Source of the DNA: Eubacteriales bacterium
GTDB lineage: Bacteria > Bacillota > Clostridia > Saccharofermentanales > UBA5734
Assembly: GCA_028685755.1 (NCBI GenBank)
Contig: JAQUDJ010000014.1
Coordinates: 1-55,556 of the forward strand
Reading direction: 5' to 3'
DNA length: 55,556 bases
The notes beneath the pieces were generated by a model. It was not told the origin of the DNA. It saw only the letters and a program-made list of their open reading frames with translations, and did not search any database. Both the position numbers and the translations under genes were made by a program. Below are positions 46,933 through 52,777 of this stretch, one piece after another. Numbering within the stretch: position 1 is the first letter of the stretch; each line of letters begins with the position of its first letter.

Positions 46933-47607
46933 TCAGCCTTGGAAATCGCCGTTATAGCTTACGAGCACAACGTTGCGAATACCTGCTAAGGCTGCCACTT
47001 CGTTGACTAATTCAGTCGAGTTGTTTTTCAATCGGACCTCTACCGTTAGTTCAATGCCATTACCGGCTGTAACGCTTTTCGATTTGATGATCTGGCGGTT
47101 GGTGCGCGCATTGACCGCTGTCATCGCGCGGTTTTCAGCCTCGTCATCGATGCAGCTTAGGACCAAAATGTAGGGGACTTCATTCGGTTTGCGACTGATA
47201 AAAATCAGGAGAATGAGTCCAATAAATACAGAGCCAAAAATGGCGAGGGGGATCAAACCGGCACCAAGCACAATCCCGCCAGCGATCGCCCAAAACAAAA
47301 AGGCGATATCCATCGGTTCTTTGATCGCAGTTCGAAACCGGACGATCGATAAAGCACCGACCATACCTAAGGATAAAATAACGTTTGAGGTTACGGCAAG
47401 AATGACTAACGACGTGATCATGGTCAGTGCCATCAAGCTGACGCCAAAACTCTGCGAATACATTACGCCACGGTAGGTTTTACGATAAACCGTGAGAATG
47501 AAGGCGCCGAGTAGAAACGACAGACCGAGGGCAATGATCATGTCCACTGCTGAGAAGGTTGTGGCTTTTTCGAGAAAGCTGTTTTTGAAAATGTCCGAAA
47601 AATTCAT
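46933..47607 (-). CDS. DUF4956 membrane protein
   Basis: A 224-residue protein with three or four membrane segments in the first 135 residues: a MIIALGLSFLLGAFILTVYRK stretch near 24, LMALTMITSLVILAV near 57, and AIAGGIVLGAGLIPLAIFGSV near 110. The SMVGALSIVRFRTAIKEPMD-like segment (GMVGALSIVRFRTAIKEP near 82) is the DUF4956 hallmark. A cytosolic ferredoxin-like tail follows. These proteins occur next to VTC polyphosphate polymerases and may act with them; the function is unknown. AAGGAG precedes ATG, 11 nt after the VTC gene. Confidence 0.87.
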   Translation of the reverse strand: MNFSDIFKNSFLEKATTFSAVDMIIALGLSFLLGAFILTVYRKTYRGVMYSQSFGVSLMALTMITSLVILAVTSNVILSLGMVGALSIVRFRTAIKEPMDIAFLFWAIAGGIVLGAGLIPLAIFGSVFIGLILLIFISRKPNEVPYILVLSCIDDEAENRAMTAVNARTNRQIIKSKSVTAGNGIELTVEVRLKNNSTELVNEVAALAGIRNVVLVSYNGDFQG

Positions 47608-47618
47608 GGGTTTTCTCC

Positions 47619-48302
47619 TTAATAAAATATTCGACTAGCTGCATATTTAGACATAGCACCGACTTGGCGTTCACCAAGTTGGATAATATCGCGGACGATA
47701 TCGGGTAGATAAGCGTCGTATTTGACCTCGAGCACGGTCAATCCTTGCAAATCCGTCAAGACGAGCGGTTGGTTTTGATCAAAAAAAGCTAACGAATGCA
47801 AACCGGAGCGGATTTCACTATCAAGGGTGATCCGGACATTGCCTGGGCCATAGATAAATGCCTCACGTTGATATTCGACAATCGTTTTAGGGCGCAGGAG
47901 GTGGCCTTGCATCTTAGCTCCTAGATCCTGTAAAACAGGGCGTTGATCGGATAACAACCAATTTGTGTCACCAGCGATTATGCGCATTGTCTCTTCGCGG
48001 CTGACCCTAGTCGATTGTTTGCCACATAGATTACGTAATTTAATCTTTTTTTCGAGTCGAATCCATTCACAGTTGTCGCCATAGAAGCGCAATCTAAATT
48101 TTTCGCGTTCACTGAGACCGTCAATTTTTTCGTTCAAGGCGGCATCGCGGTAATTGTCAAAGTACAGGCTGCGTACGCGATATCGGCCATCTGGTCCGGC
48201 ATGGCTATCACGAGGAATCACTGCAGCTAAGCGACTGCTCAGTGCCATGACGTCTGCACGATTGATGAGGTGTTTGAGTTCATGGCGCCAGGGTGTTGCC
48301 AT
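47619..48302 (-). CDS. VTC-domain polyphosphate polymerase-like protein
   Basis: A 227-residue protein made of a single VTC (CYTH-like tunnel) domain, related to the catalytic domain of yeast Vtc4, which makes polyphosphate from ATP. Tunnel residues are visible in the order RHELKHLIN near residue 5, YRVRSLYFDNYRD near 41, REKFRLRFYGDN near 65, RLEKKIKLRN near 82, a STRVSREE segment near 97, EYQREAF near 142, RITLDSEIR near 156 and LEVKYDAYLP near 188. It lies between the DUF4405 and DUF4956 genes and has no membrane segment of its own. Activity is inferred from family and conserved basic residues. Confidence 0.87.
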   Translation of the reverse strand: MATPWRHELKHLINRADVMALSSRLAAVIPRDSHAGPDGRYRVRSLYFDNYRDAALNEKIDGLSEREKFRLRFYGDNCEWIRLEKKIKLRNLCGKQSTRVSREETMRIIAGDTNWLLSDQRPVLQDLGAKMQGHLLRPKTIVEYQREAFIYGPGNVRITLDSEIRSGLHSLAFFDQNQPLVLTDLQGLTVLEVKYDAYLPDIVRDIIQLGERQVGAMSKYAASRIFY

Positions 48303-48365
48303 CGTTGTGATCTTCCCTTCATGTCCGTTTGTGCTAAAAAAATTACTTGTGATGAAAAGCTGTGA

Positions 48366-49253
48366 TCAATTGGCTGCTTCTGGGTATTCGGAGTAGTACT
48401 GTGCGGTATATTGCTCGACCTGTGGATCACCTTTGCCACACCGCGGGGCGGACAGTAGGCAATGCTTGTGACAGGCTGTGCAAGTGAAGTTTGAAAGGTA
48501 TTGGGTTAATGTCGGGACTGCAGCAGCTGAATTGTCGACTATGGAAGATTCTGTGGTGGTCTGTGCTGAACTCGCCGGCAACGAGTCGATAACCGCTGTG
48601 CCCTGATCAATATCATCAAGGGTCGAATCTGTTGTGGCTTGCGAACTTGAGGTCGAATTATTAAGCATGGTCGAATTTTGAATGGCAAGATCTTGATCTT
48701 GTGTGGCAAGGAGCACCTCAATGGCCGATGTTTGGATCACTGAATAGGCGGCACCTAAGGCAAAAAGACCAAGGGTAGCGCGTACGACAACCGTGCGCAC
48801 AGGCTGGAGATGTGGGTCGCGAATGAGGGTGCGGATGACCCGTTTGATCCAATCGGCATGCAGCAAGACGTGGATGATGACAATCAGCAACGTGGCCCAA
48901 CTCGAAAAACTATGAATAGCGGTCCAGGCTGAGTAGTTGGCTGCAGCAAGCGGTGTGAAGAGGAATTGGGATATGAGTACGCCACTCAAGAGCGTCAAGG
49001 TCATACTGATCGCCATCATACTGTTGATCATAAAATTGATTCTGGCTTGCCAGCTGATTTTTGAAAAGAAGCCTTTTCCTACAGCGGCGATCCACTGTCG
49101 GTTGATCGCGAGATGCGCGACCAACGCGCCGCCGATGATGACACCAAGCCATTCGTGGGCAAATACACCACTGATTAGTGGCTGCATCAAAATGATCATC
49201 ACGGCCGCTAGGATGACATCAATAATTAATTTGCGTTTCATTTTGGGATTCAT
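48366..49253 (-). CDS. DUF4405-type membrane protein with Cys/His-rich tail
   Basis: A 295-residue protein. Residues 1-170 hold four or five membrane helices with conserved His residues (HEWLGVIIGGALVAHLAINRQW near 33, WTAIHSFSSWATLLIVIIHV near 112), a pattern typical of DUF4405/cytochrome-b-like quinone or heme membrane proteins. A Ser/Thr-rich linker (about 190-245) follows. The C-terminus has C-x2-C-H-x-H-C-x6-C at Cys258-Cys272, which includes a CxxCH. This tail could bind heme or a metal. The ribosome binding site GGAGG lies inside the stem of the upstream terminator. First gene of the operon with the VTC and DUF4956 genes. Confidence 0.82.
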   Translation of the reverse strand: MNPKMKRKLIIDVILAAVMIILMQPLISGVFAHEWLGVIIGGALVAHLAINRQWIAAVGKGFFSKISWQARINFMINSMMAISMTLTLLSGVLISQFLFTPLAAANYSAWTAIHSFSSWATLLIVIIHVLLHADWIKRVIRTLIRDPHLQPVRTVVVRATLGLFALGAAYSVIQTSAIEVLLATQDQDLAIQNSTMLNNSTSSSQATTDSTLDDIDQGTAVIDSLPASSAQTTTESSIVDNSAAAVPTLTQYLSNFTCTACHKHCLLSAPRCGKGDPQVEQYTAQYYSEYPEAAN

Positions 49254-49261
49254 ATTAAAAA

Positions 49262-49317
49262 ACCTCCGGTTGTTGGGCTCAAAGTCGTTTTGTACTCTGA
49301 GAATAACAACCGAAGGT
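49262..49317 (-). terminator. Terminator hairpin overlapping the DUF4405 ribosome binding site
   Basis: On the minus strand a 13-position stem (49305-49317 with 49262-49274, one mismatch) encloses a 30-base loop and is followed by TTTTTT, which fits a rho-independent terminator for the htrA/two-component operon. The 3' arm contains the GGAGG that serves the DUF4405 ATG at 49253, so transcripts reading through would hide that site in the stem. Confidence 0.75.
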
Positions 49318-49362
49318 GATGAATTTGTGAAGGTCGAGCGATAATCTATTGAATTCTAATAA

Positions 49363-50883
49363 TTATTTTCGAACGGGTAATTCGAACCAGAATGTCGCAC
49401 CATGACCAGGCAAGGAGTCAACACCATAACGAGCGTGATGCAATTCAAGAATTTGTTTGACGATTGAGAGGCCAAGACCCGTACCGACAACTGCGCGACG
49501 ATGAGACTTGTCAGATTTGTAATAGCGGTCCCAGATATGTTTGAGTTCTTCAGGCGCAATTCCTTCGCCACTATCAATCACCGCCATGCGAACCCACCCA
49601 TCGGTCACCGATTGGCGCACAAGCACACGGTGATCGGCGCCAGTATAGTGAACGGCATTTGTCAGCAAATTGTACATGACTTGCTCAATTCGCGCTGCAT
49701 CGCCACTAATCGTAACTTTTTCGGTGGCCTCAAAATCTACATGATAGCCTTCAGCTTCGGTCAATTTGCCGACGCGGTCAACAATATCACCAACTGCAGC
49801 TGTCAAATCATAGTCTGCTACTTTCAAATGTTGGGTCCCCGATTGGAGCTTGGATAAGTCTAAGATGTGATTGACCAAATTAGCCAGGCGATTTGATTCA
49901 TCAATGATCACTTGGACATTTTCTGGATTATTTTCGCCAGGTAAATCGCGCATAACTTCAGCATATCCACGAATCATCGTCAAAGGTGTCCGGAGATCGT
50001 GTGAAATATTCGCGATTAATTCCCGGCGCAAGGACTCGACGCGGCTGAGTTCGGTGGCTGTTTCGTTGAGCGTTTCGGCAAGTTCTTCAACTTCTTTGTA
50101 GCCAGACGCTTCAAAACGGACCTGATAGTCGCCAGCAGCCATTTCTTTCGAACGTTTGTTGATCCGGATTATTGGCCGTGATATCTGACGCGAGAGAACC
50201 CAGGCGAGAATCATCGAAAGTAGTGTCAAAATGACTGTGACATAAATGAGTTGGACCCGTAATGTCTGAACCGTCGCAGTCACTGGCGAGAGCATCGTGT
50301 TGATCAGAATGACTGCCGATGTGCCGTCCGATAGCACAACCTGGCGCGAGTAAATAATCGATTGCTTCAACCCATCTCCTGGCAGAGGGACTGCCCCGGC
50401 AAATTTTCGATCGTCGTACCGATCGTCATTAAATTCCGAGCGGTCATAAAGTTCGAGATATTCACCACCGGAAGCGACAGTTTTGTCATACAACTCATAA
50501 AGATCGTCGATCGCTAAATGATTGATTAGACTAGTCGGTCCGATTTCGAACGAAGCTAAATCGCCACCAGAAACGGTGAAAATCCGAATACTGAGGTCGC
50601 CCTGTTGAGCAATGCGTGTAATCAGTGTCTCGAGTTCATCGTGATTGATATTGGCGGCGATAACCGATGCGGTTCGCTTGATTTCGCTCGTCTTGATCCC
50701 GCGATAAAAACGGTCTAAGAAAACGGTTTGAAACATCCAGAGCAACCCAACGAGAACCAGCGAGAATGTTAAAAATGAAACGAAAAGTGACACACCAATT
50801 GTGGGACGCTTGGCTTTGGGTTTAACTTTCTGAAGCGATTTCTGTTTGGATTGAAAATCTGTCGTTGATTCAGTACTAATCAT
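49363..50883 (-). CDS. Membrane sensor histidine kinase
   Basis: A 506-residue kinase, two membrane segments (about 30-53 and 208-230) flanking an extracellular sensor of about 150 residues. A HAMP domain follows (SRQISRPIIRINKRSKEMAA near 233), then HisKA with the phospho-His in LIANISHDLRTPLTMIRGYA near 287, and an HATPase with NLLTNAVHY near 396, DSGEGIAPEELKHIWDRYY near 435, and GTGLGLSIVKQIL near 466. The ATG at 50883 has AAGGATC upstream; an earlier TTG in frame overlaps the regulator gene. It is paired with the response regulator 13 nt upstream and with htrA. Confidence 0.93.
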   Translation of the reverse strand: MISTESTTDFQSKQKSLQKVKPKAKRPTIGVSLFVSFLTFSLVLVGLLWMFQTVFLDRFYRGIKTSEIKRTASVIAANINHDELETLITRIAQQGDLSIRIFTVSGGDLASFEIGPTSLINHLAIDDLYELYDKTVASGGEYLELYDRSEFNDDRYDDRKFAGAVPLPGDGLKQSIIYSRQVVLSDGTSAVILINTMLSPVTATVQTLRVQLIYVTVILTLLSMILAWVLSRQISRPIIRINKRSKEMAAGDYQVRFEASGYKEVEELAETLNETATELSRVESLRRELIANISHDLRTPLTMIRGYAEVMRDLPGENNPENVQVIIDESNRLANLVNHILDLSKLQSGTQHLKVADYDLTAAVGDIVDRVGKLTEAEGYHVDFEATEKVTISGDAARIEQVMYNLLTNAVHYTGADHRVLVRQSVTDGWVRMAVIDSGEGIAPEELKHIWDRYYKSDKSHRRAVVGTGLGLSIVKQILELHHARYGVDSLPGHGATFWFELPVRK

Positions 50884-50896
50884 CACGTTGCGATCC

Positions 50897-51574
50897 TTAA
50901 GCTTCAAAGCGATAGCCTAAGCCACGCAACGTGACAATAAACTTGCGGTATTCGCCGAGACTGTTTCGCAAAAGTTTGATATGCGTGTCTAGTGTCCGGT
51001 CATCACCAAAAAAGTCGTATCCCCAAACTTCGGTGATCAATTTTTCACGTGTCAGTGCAATCCCCTTGTTGCGAACTAGATAAAATAATAATTCATATTC
51101 TTTCGGTGAGAGATCGAGCGTCACGCCATCAGCGGATACGACTCGGCCTGTAAAATCAATATGCAAGCCCTCGTATTGCAGCACATCGTGAGTCTTCTCG
51201 GTGGCAGCAGGTTTTTGGTTGCGACGGATCAGCACACCAATCCGCATCATGACTTCTTTCGGCGAAAAGGGCTTGACGACGTAGTCCTCAATGCCCAATT
51301 CAAAACCGTGAATTTTGTCATATTCTTCGCCCCGTGCCGAAAGCATGAGAACGGGGATTTTTTTAAATTTAAAAATCTCGCGGCAGGCCGAAAATCCATC
51401 GAGTTCGGGCATCATCACATCCATGATAATGGCGTCAAAATCTTCTTGTTTGCAAATCTGCACCGCAGCCATGCCGTCTTGTGCTTCGACGATCTCGTAG
51501 CCTTCAAATGCTGCATATTTTCTGAGCATTAGGCGAATTTTTTCTTCATCATCGACTAAAAGTAGACGGCTCAT
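50897..51574 (-). CDS. OmpR/PhoB-family response regulator
   Basis: A 225-residue regulator. The receiver domain has LLLVDDEEKIR at the N-terminus, phospho-acceptor Asp in DAIIMDVMMPELDG near residue 53, and KPFSPKEV near 104 with the conserved Lys. A winged-helix DNA-binding domain follows (LTLDLSPKEYELLFYLVRN-like start near 143, VWGYDFFGDDRTLDTHIKLL near 185 and a final GLGYRFEA). The ATG at 51574 has GGAGGTGACCTG upstream. It lies 27 nt after htrA and 13 nt before its kinase, forming a three-gene operon that probably responds to envelope stress. Confidence 0.95.
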   Translation of the reverse strand: MSRLLLVDDEEKIRLMLRKYAAFEGYEIVEAQDGMAAVQICKQEDFDAIIMDVMMPELDGFSACREIFKFKKIPVLMLSARGEEYDKIHGFELGIEDYVVKPFSPKEVMMRIGVLIRRNQKPAATEKTHDVLQYEGLHIDFTGRVVSADGVTLDLSPKEYELLFYLVRNKGIALTREKLITEVWGYDFFGDDRTLDTHIKLLRNSLGEYRKFIVTLRGLGYRFEA

Positions 51575-51601
51575 CAGGTCACCTCCGCGGCTTCTCAATT
51601 A

Positions 51602-52777
51602 TTATACTTGTGGCTGTGTTTCCTGCAAAGCGATTTCAAGGGTGAGCAGTTGACCATCGCGCGTGATTGAAAAGCGAAGCGTCGATGTTACCGTCTGATC
51701 TTTAAGCAAATTGCGCACATCTTCTGACGAAGCGATCGTTTGGTCATCGATTGTTACGATGCGATCCCCACTTTGTAATCCCCCGCGTGCGGCATTCCCT
51801 GCTTCATCGACTTTGAGGATATAGACACCCATTTCGGTTACACGATACATTTGAACAAGTTCTTCAGAGTTAATGTCGAGCAAGGTCACCCCGAGTTTGA
51901 CCCGACCTTGGACTGCGCCATAACGCTCCAAATCATTGATGATCGTTTTGACATCATTGACTGGAATCGCAAAGCCTAGGCCTTCGACACCGGTGCCCGA
52001 TGATTTTGCGACGACGAGGCCAATGAGCTTGCCGGATTCATCAAACAAACCGCCTCCTGAATTGCCGGGGTTAATTGCCGCGTTGGTCTGTAAGAGATTC
52101 ATCGTTACATTGTCGAGGCTGATTTCGCGATCTAAGGCACTGATGATGCCATCGGTCACAGTCCCGCCCAGCTCACCGAGCGGATTACCTATGGCTACGG
52201 CGAGATCGCCGACTTGCAATTGATCTGAGTCACCTAATTGGGCGGTTGGCAGTCCTGTCGCAGCAATTTTGATCAAAGCGACGTCCGTGACGCTGTCAGT
52301 TCCGAGCAGCGTCGCTTCAAACGTCTGACCATCTTTGAGCCGGACTGTCATTTTTGAAGCGCCTTCGATGACATGATTGTTCGTCATGATCAAGCCATCC
52401 GACCCGATAATGACGCCACTGCCAGCCCCTTCAGCAATGTATTCTGATGAGCGCAGTCCGCTAACTTTCACCTCTGTGCGAATTTCGACGACAGCTGGCG
52501 AGGCCAGTTGGGCGATTTCCGCCACGCTAAGTGCTGTACCTGCTGGGTTGTTCACAAGGGACTGGGCCGCGACGGCATTGCCATTTTCGGAATAAATGCC
52601 CGATTGGTCTGTAGCCGCAGTGGCCGAGGTGACGGACAGATCTGAAGCTTGCCCAACTGCTTGAACTGCGGTCGAGGCAGGGAAATATTGGGACGCTACA
52701 TAGCCACCGCCAAAACCTAAAGCACCTGATACCACAATGGTCGCTGATGCAAAGACTGCTAAACTTCGATTAAACAT
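51602..52777 (-). CDS. HtrA/DegP-type membrane-anchored serine protease
   Basis: A 391-residue protease. An N-terminal helix (LAVFASATIVVSGALGFGGG, residues 5-24) anchors it outside the cell membrane. The trypsin-like domain has His in MTNNHVIEG near 142, Asp in DVALIKI near 175 and Ser in NPGNSGGGLFDE near 250, so the triad is complete. One PDZ domain follows (GVYILKVDEAGNAARGGLQS near 330). It degrades misfolded exported proteins. First gene of the operon with a two-component system. A leader hairpin (CCGGAT 52806-52811 with ATCCGG 52820-52825) lies upstream of its ribosome binding site. Confidence 0.94.
   Translation of the reverse strand: MFNRSLAVFASATIVVSGALGFGGGYVASQYFPASTAVQAVGQASDLSVTSATAATDQSGIYSENGNAVAAQSLVNNPAGTALSVAEIAQLASPAVVEIRTEVKVSGLRSSEYIAEGAGSGVIIGSDGLIMTNNHVIEGASKMTVRLKDGQTFEATLLGTDSVTDVALIKIAATGLPTAQLGDSDQLQVGDLAVAIGNPLGELGGTVTDGIISALDREISLDNVTMNLLQTNAAINPGNSGGGLFDESGKLIGLVVAKSSGTGVEGLGFAIPVNDVKTIINDLERYGAVQGRVKLGVTLLDINSEELVQMYRVTEMGVYILKVDEAGNAARGGLQSGDRIVTIDDQTIASSEDVRNLLKDQTVTSTLRFSITRDGQLLTLEIALQETQPQV

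Follow-up and report, generated by a model that had tools for sequence, protein, structure and literature searches.

The start of the DUF4405 gene in the window, the stretch of 55,556 nucleotides of Eubacteriales DNA analysed here, lies inside a hairpin that directly follows a gene cluster encoding an HtrA-like protease, a response regulator and a histidine kinase. The whole feature spans 49317-49251 on the minus strand. In the reading that we consider best, and to which we give about an even chance of being right, this hairpin both terminates the htrA/response regulator/kinase operon and silences read-through RNA, with an embedded promoter, as in T4 gene e. Polymerases arriving from the kinase gene would mostly halt at the T tract; any read-through RNA that leaked past it would have its Shine-Dalgarno (SD) sequence locked and its AUG partly paired, leaving DUF4405 untranslated; and DUF4405 would be expressed from a promoter of its own, with the -10 box between the arms, giving an mRNA that begins in the loop, lacks the left arm and presents a freer ribosome binding site (RBS). 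This reading builds on the sequence, the predicted structure, the rank of the hairpin in a sample of its genome and a covarying arrangement that recurs elsewhere in the order. The features are listed in Table 1.

Table 1. Features of the DUF4405 locus and of the hairpin at the start of the gene (positions in the window).
Feature	Position	Strand	Description and basis
HtrA-like serine protease	51602..52777	-	within htrA/response regulator/kinase cluster
Response regulator	50897..51598	-	within htrA/response regulator/kinase cluster
Histidine kinase, upstream gene	49363..50907	-	profile match; stop 49365-49363
Focal hairpin	49262..49317	-	outer 13-bp stem, 3x3 internal loop, inner 8-bp stem; fold
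Outer stem arms	49317-49305 / 49274-49262	-	ACCTTCGGTTGTT / AACAACCGGAGGT, 13 bp including one G-U
Candidate extended -10	49300..49308	-	TGT-TATTCT (TGTTATTCT); left-arm +11; 4/6, poor -35
Inner stem arms	49301-49294 / 49285-49278	-	CTCAGAGT / ACTTTGAG, 8 bp
Apical loop	49293-49286	-	8 nt, ACAAAACG
GGAGG SD of DUF4405 gene	49263..49267	-	inside 3' arm; sequence
T6 tract	49257..49262	-	presumed terminator tail, part of SD-to-ATG spacer; sequence
DUF4405 start codon ATG	49253-49251	-	start agrees with two orthologues
DUF4405 gene	48366..49253	-	295 aa, probable membrane cytochrome; PF14358, E 1.9e-7; orthologues
VTC-domain gene, downstream of DUF4405	47619..48302	-	PF09359
DUF4956 gene, downstream of VTC gene	46933..47607	-	PF16316

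From 5' to 3' the element reads ACCTTCGGTTGTT-ATT-CTCAGAGT-ACAAAACG-ACTTTGAG-CCC-AACAACCGGAGGT-TTTTTAAT-ATG, and its left arm begins 45 nt after the kinase stop. The T tract, of modest length, is followed by AAT before the start codon, across which the fold allows ATTCAT to pair with ATGAAT. The minimum free energy is -30.5 kcal/mol (z -6.16), and none of 200 shuffled sequences was equally stable. The predicted probability of being unpaired at 37 °C is 0.0006 for the SD and 0.28 for the AUG. An earlier note on this DNA had placed the GGAGG of the DUF4405 gene in the 3' arm with the T tract as the spacer to the ATG, and the coordinates agree with it; its "30-base loop" is present as a region (49304-49275) but is not open, since it contains the 8-bp inner stem and the 8-nt loop. 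Its further proposals, that terminator and translation start form one element and that read-through RNA would be silent for DUF4405, are both supported by prediction, from the fold, the cost of 12.3 kcal/mol for opening the SD and the low probability that the SD is unpaired.

The focal site has the sequence hallmarks of an intrinsic terminator, namely a stable stem with a T-rich tract directly 3' of it, located after a gene. Its terminator score (d-score) is positive, 26.8 by the formula used here. The hairpin is absent from the list returned by an automated terminator scan of the window, presumably because that scan permits loops of 3-8 nt only. We infer that transcription terminates at the T tract and that the upstream cluster is a single operon. 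Two other uses of the same sequence were considered and rejected: read on the plus strand, the hairpin (-28 kcal/mol, z -3.46) has GATGAATTTG 3' of it and no T tract, and the two TTG-started frames that could carry a leader peptide through it (49309 and 49282, with a TGA overlapping the ATG) have no SD that is visible by eye.

In a sample of the same genome consisting of the window and 220 kb of contig C35, the SD opening cost of DUF4405 ranked first among 190 SD-bearing starts (mean 3.4, sd 2.5 kcal/mol), and the focal hairpin, at -27.3 kcal/mol in this comparison, was the most stable of those at 1119 TTTTT sites on both strands. Given these two ranks and the positive d-score, the terminator-like and the RBS-burying qualities of the hairpin are both exceptional in the genome sample.

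The focal ATG is correct, as two DUF4405 orthologues begin with MNPKLKKK at the same residue. A purified DUF4405 protein was reported to bind heme B, and the family has been assigned to membrane electron transfer (PMC11334425). Four DUF4405 relatives share a Cys/His motif, TCTACxxHCxLSAPxCG, after the membrane part, which lies at the C-terminus of the focal protein; it is probably not a c-type heme site, judging from the loss of the CxxCH reading in two of the four. In one relative (L014, G006), a VTC-like gene follows the kinase gene directly with no DUF4405 gene between them (by eye).

Hairpins that bury an SD were then surveyed in 188 genomes of the order. The pattern ACCTYC-N18-48-GGAGGTTTTT-N0-8-ATG was found in 24 of them, and its reversed control in none. 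When the 24 sites, the focal one included, were folded, 14 had at least 8 outer pairs and 16 reached -12 kcal/mol; eight lack an ORF of 80 aa downstream. Five sites precede a GH3 gene (PF01915 for L092, the one tested), and the gene upstream of these differs, being a DEAD helicase in two loci of genus g10 and an FtsX-type permease in three of genus g30 (Pfam for one each), so that the hairpin goes with GH3. A GH3 gene was detected in 100 of the 188 genomes. Thirty GH3 loci were taken and 29 scored (L124, whose match starts at a contig end, was left out; the start of L132 is unsure), and the SD cost was at least 8 kcal/mol in 20 of the 29 leaders.

Twenty-eight GH3 leaders carry a GGAGG, and 25 of these form a hairpin on it. 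A -10 hexamer matching at least 5/6 lies between the arms in 22 of the 25 hairpins and is lacking in three, against a mean of 5.4 and a maximum of 10 with shuffled loops; the figure of 22/25 counts related sequences, because the GH3 cases all fall in one family (f2, other than the focal one) and two genera (g10, g30). Counted from the first C in the left arm, this box sits at 11-13 nt in 21 of the 22, and the -35 boxes are poor, as at the focal site. Of nine ungapped pairs, eight or more are formed in 18 of the 28 leaders (shuffled upstream sequences: mean 4.0, maximum 8). At stem pairs 5 to 8, G-C, A-T and T-A substitute for one another in a compensatory manner, and further in, beginning with pair 9, pairing in the same register falls to 7-11 of 18. 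A TARAAT box is conserved between covarying arms in the leaders L105-L134. TAGAAT persists at this place in L108, L111, L119 and L120, four leaders in which the stem is missing or a different one is found, as expected for a promoter. Some g30 leaders also have TTGACA and TTTATAAACG-like blocks upstream.

When TANAAT was required between CCTCC and GGAGGTTT, 27 sites were found in 27 of the 188 genomes and 4 with the reversed pattern; a scrambled-box control gave 6 sites (reversed: 3), and four of the six contain TATAAT or TAAAAT anyway. Twenty-two of the 27 sites precede an ORF of at least 80 aa, which is a GH3 gene in 12 cases. If RNA begins 7 nt downstream of the -10, the predicted median SD cost over the 27 sites falls from 11.1 to 3.5 kcal/mol, and 16 of the 17 sites with a cost of at least 8 would drop to 5 or less. 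Outside GH3, a good -10 (at least 5/6) lies between the arms in six of 21 hairpins on an SD, a set from which 13 sites with ORFs below 80 aa had been dropped and beside which 13 further genes have no hairpin on the SD; the focal box scores 4/6.

One of the other hairpins stands before a gene for a thioredoxin-like membrane protein in G006 (L102/L059, contig C95), with TGATATACT between its arms and TGTGACTTGTATCACA upstream, the centre of which was counted by hand to lie roughly 41 nt upstream of the expected start. We take TGTGACTTGTATCACA to resemble a CRP/FNR palindrome, placed as in a class II CRP/FNR site. Three PNPase genes (L099 and L101 of g30, and L038; Pfam for L099, the others by eye) have GGAGGTTTTT in a hairpin, and L099 and L101 have ACCTCCTTAT upstream in common, perhaps for autoregulation. 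Finally, the RBS of a phosphoribosyltransferase gene (L084, PyrR-like by eye) lies in a hairpin arm, perhaps of a pyr attenuator.

These results argue that, for the order-wide class, a promoter within the loop is likely. At the focal site itself we regard it as about even. The suggestion of the earlier note that a promoter in the loop frees the RBS has good support from analogous hairpins elsewhere in the order; in the focal sequence such a promoter is weakly marked, with a 4/6 -10 preceded by TGN and a poor -35. The candidate TATTCT, an extended -10 of moderate quality, lies at left-arm position +11, within the range of the GH3 boxes, and TGNTANNNT is expected 0.0027 times in three positions, a figure obtained after the GH3 pattern had been seen. 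At least five other promoter candidates of the region outscore this box, and these are themselves at background level (top score 6.35, against a background with median 6.0 and 95th percentile 6.85). From TGTTATTCT, a start is predicted near 49293, which would shed the left arm. An overlapping box, TTCACA-17-TGTTAT, has the second-best score, at background level; its -10 ends at 49303 and it would start RNA near 49296, likewise in the loop and to the same effect. The best-scoring promoter of the region, TTGAGC-17-TTTAAT in the 3' arm, was rejected, as its start would fall inside the coding region. For RNAs starting at 49296-49287, if they are made, the predicted SD cost is 4.8 instead of 12.3 kcal/mol and the SD is 22% unpaired. 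Two marks of a gene e-type arrangement, an SD buried in the long RNA and freed in the loop-started RNA, are found in the predictions; for the third, a promoter in the region of the 5' arm, the focal site offers the weak candidate box. The TANAAT-between-arms pattern has no match in the focal genome, and the focal left arm, with CCTTC, falls outside that pattern.

Within the genus, DUF4405 occurs in three of five genomes, the focal one included. It lies directly behind the same kinase in G003, and in G001 the same adjacency is inferred because two contig ends carry the same hairpin. A hairpin follows the kinase stop by about 40-45 nt in all three; it has 16 bp in G003 and, by eye, no fewer in G001. 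In both relatives, about 125-140 nt separate it from a separate RBS of DUF4405, and the SD costs are 5.6 (G003) and 6.7 kcal/mol (G001) versus 12.3 at the focal site. On the inner cores of these hairpins the d-score is 3.4 for G001, which passes, and -33.5 for G003, which by this formula does not clearly qualify as a terminator. Judged by eye, the hairpin of G004 has decayed and a different gene is present there, and G002 shows neither. Among more distant relatives, a contig scan gave 11 DUF4405 loci, of which eight leaders were viewed (L070, L072 and L074 were left out), three of the eight appearing to duplicate the G001, G003 and G016 records; six were scored, with SD costs of 2.8-6.7 kcal/mol, the start of L069 being unsure. 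The comparison of the hairpin in relatives that had been proposed earlier thus did not bear out the overlap, which is not kept in two same-genus genomes with DUF4405. As the hairpin is placed alike in G001 and G003 and the RBS is separate, insulation of DUF4405 from the kinase operon may recur in the genus and the RBS overlap does not; as far as these sequences indicate, the overlap at DUF4405 is found solely in the focal species.

The same comparison lends itself to a simpler account, which we consider possible though doubtful: an ordinary terminator and an ordinary RBS came to overlap by compaction in this species, perhaps because a spacer like that of the relatives (about 125-140 nt) was lost, lowering expression without regulating it, and DUF4405 either has its promoter somewhere else or is scarcely expressed. 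The hairpin at a similar distance from the kinase with a separate RBS in G001 and G003 agrees with this account, as do a focal promoter that does not rise above background and the frequency of GGAGGTTTTT..ATG in the family, where 19 of 23 genomes have it. However, the predicted lock of 12.3 kcal/mol should nearly abolish translation of any transcript started upstream, so that an intact DUF4405 gene needs an escape. A 13-bp stem that includes GGAGG would also be a large coincidence, and the arrangement recurs in the order.

That the hairpin is an RNA switch, as the earlier note had offered as an alternative to the promoter, is unlikely. An upstream promoter (e.g., TTACCC-16-TAGAAT ending at 49353) or read-through would feed an attenuator whose stem is opened by a ligand, a protein, an sRNA or temperature. 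There is precedent close by, as at one of the five GGAGGTTTTT..ATG sites of the focal genome, on contig C50 (G000:C50:143640-144240, L078), a c-di-GMP-I-GGC riboswitch (64.6 bits) is followed by a similarly built hairpin that buries the SD, then by T6; the same kind of hairpin follows a riboswitch of this family (61.4 bits) in G001:C408 (L081). Both have the RBS GGGAGG in a hairpin arm, T6 or T7 and then the ATG, before genes that resemble those of secreted proteins. A GGAGGTTTTT..ATG site in G007 also lies behind a TPP riboswitch (56.3 bits). Moreover, both riboswitch dual expression platforms (PMC2258182) and a leader-peptide SD within a terminator, that of rplJL (PMC4538822), have been described.

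At the focal site, however, Rfam models gave no family match up to E 1 in 48200-49600, nor at gathering scores in the window, so that a known riboswitch was rejected, no described aptamer being found upstream, and a mere 45 nt separate the kinase stop from the stem. The best upstream complements to the left and right arms are average, being equalled in 32% and 68% of random segments, so that neither an antiterminator nor the competing complement of an attenuator stands out from chance. The SD is predicted to be unpaired at 0.06% at 37 °C and at 1.3% at 70 °C, closed throughout, and the hairpin is therefore no RNA thermometer. Ribosomes finishing the kinase would halt 45 nt upstream of the stem and so would leave it closed. 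Nor is the overlap conserved in the two same-genus relatives. Nothing was thus found in support of a ligand, antiterminator or temperature switch.

Strength alone does not prove a terminator in this genome, as strong T-tailed hairpins are often found within ORFs in the sample. Among 11 T5-tailed hairpins at -20 kcal/mol or better, six are intergenic, four of which follow a gene on the same strand by no more than 150 nt, and five are inside ORFs; among 106 at -10 kcal/mol or better, 17 are intergenic (a simple purpose-made ORF caller was used for this division). Yet that the focal hairpin, itself a prediction, acts in the cell as neither a terminator nor a lock on translation is very improbable given its z of -6.16, its first rank among the 1119 T5-tailed sites and its intergenic position directly after the end of the operon.

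Returning to the reading of a terminator and read-through silencer with an embedded promoter, we extend it, at even chances, to many chromosomal genes of the order (probably Clostridia): a "read-through lock" in which one element of about 50 bp would serve as upstream terminator, read-through silencer and downstream promoter, with the -10 between its arms and the RBS in the 3' arm, kept by GH3 with compensatory changes despite differing upstream genes, with DUF4405, the thioredoxin gene with its CRP/FNR-like box and others having their own versions. If this is true, the element is a compact natural insulator, through which a gene obeys its own promoter and is deaf to read-through at the RNA and the protein level; it would caution against equating co-transcription with co-expression, and the lock would be readily testable in reporters.

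Among known systems, the dual expression platforms of riboswitches (Barrick and Breaker) place the RBS in the 3' portion of a gene-adjacent terminator hairpin (PMC2258182) and share this with the focal element, which differs in having no known aptamer. In the Bacillus subtilis rplJL leader, the SD of the leader peptide lies in the 3' part of the terminator and is free only if an antiterminator forms, under the control of L10(L12)4 (PMC4538822); at the focal site, no such antiterminator or leader peptide was found. In view of these two systems, the overlap of terminator and RBS as such is already known. For a chromosomal RBS lock with the promoter inside the terminator, we found no record in the open-access literature as judged by titles and the beginnings of abstracts. 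The transposase leaders of IS200 and IS10 block read-through RNA, and in IS200 mRNA structure reportedly suppresses transposase expression; repression by mRNA structure is the likeness, and the difference is that these are mobile elements.

The closest parallel is in T4. For gene e, long transcripts fold and lysozyme synthesis is reduced 100-fold, and late promoters near the 5' strand of the stem give well-translated RNAs; likewise in soc, 49 and I-TevI, the RBS is hidden in long upstream transcripts and mRNAs without the 5' strand are well translated (PMC3014915). T4 differs in relying on late promoters and timing, and the account of gene e used here names no terminator (PMC3014915), whereas a T tract follows the focal stem, which stands behind a chromosomal operon, and the promoter there is a candidate. 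T4 lysozyme shows that the principle works, and the covarying chromosomal cases would make it a general device.
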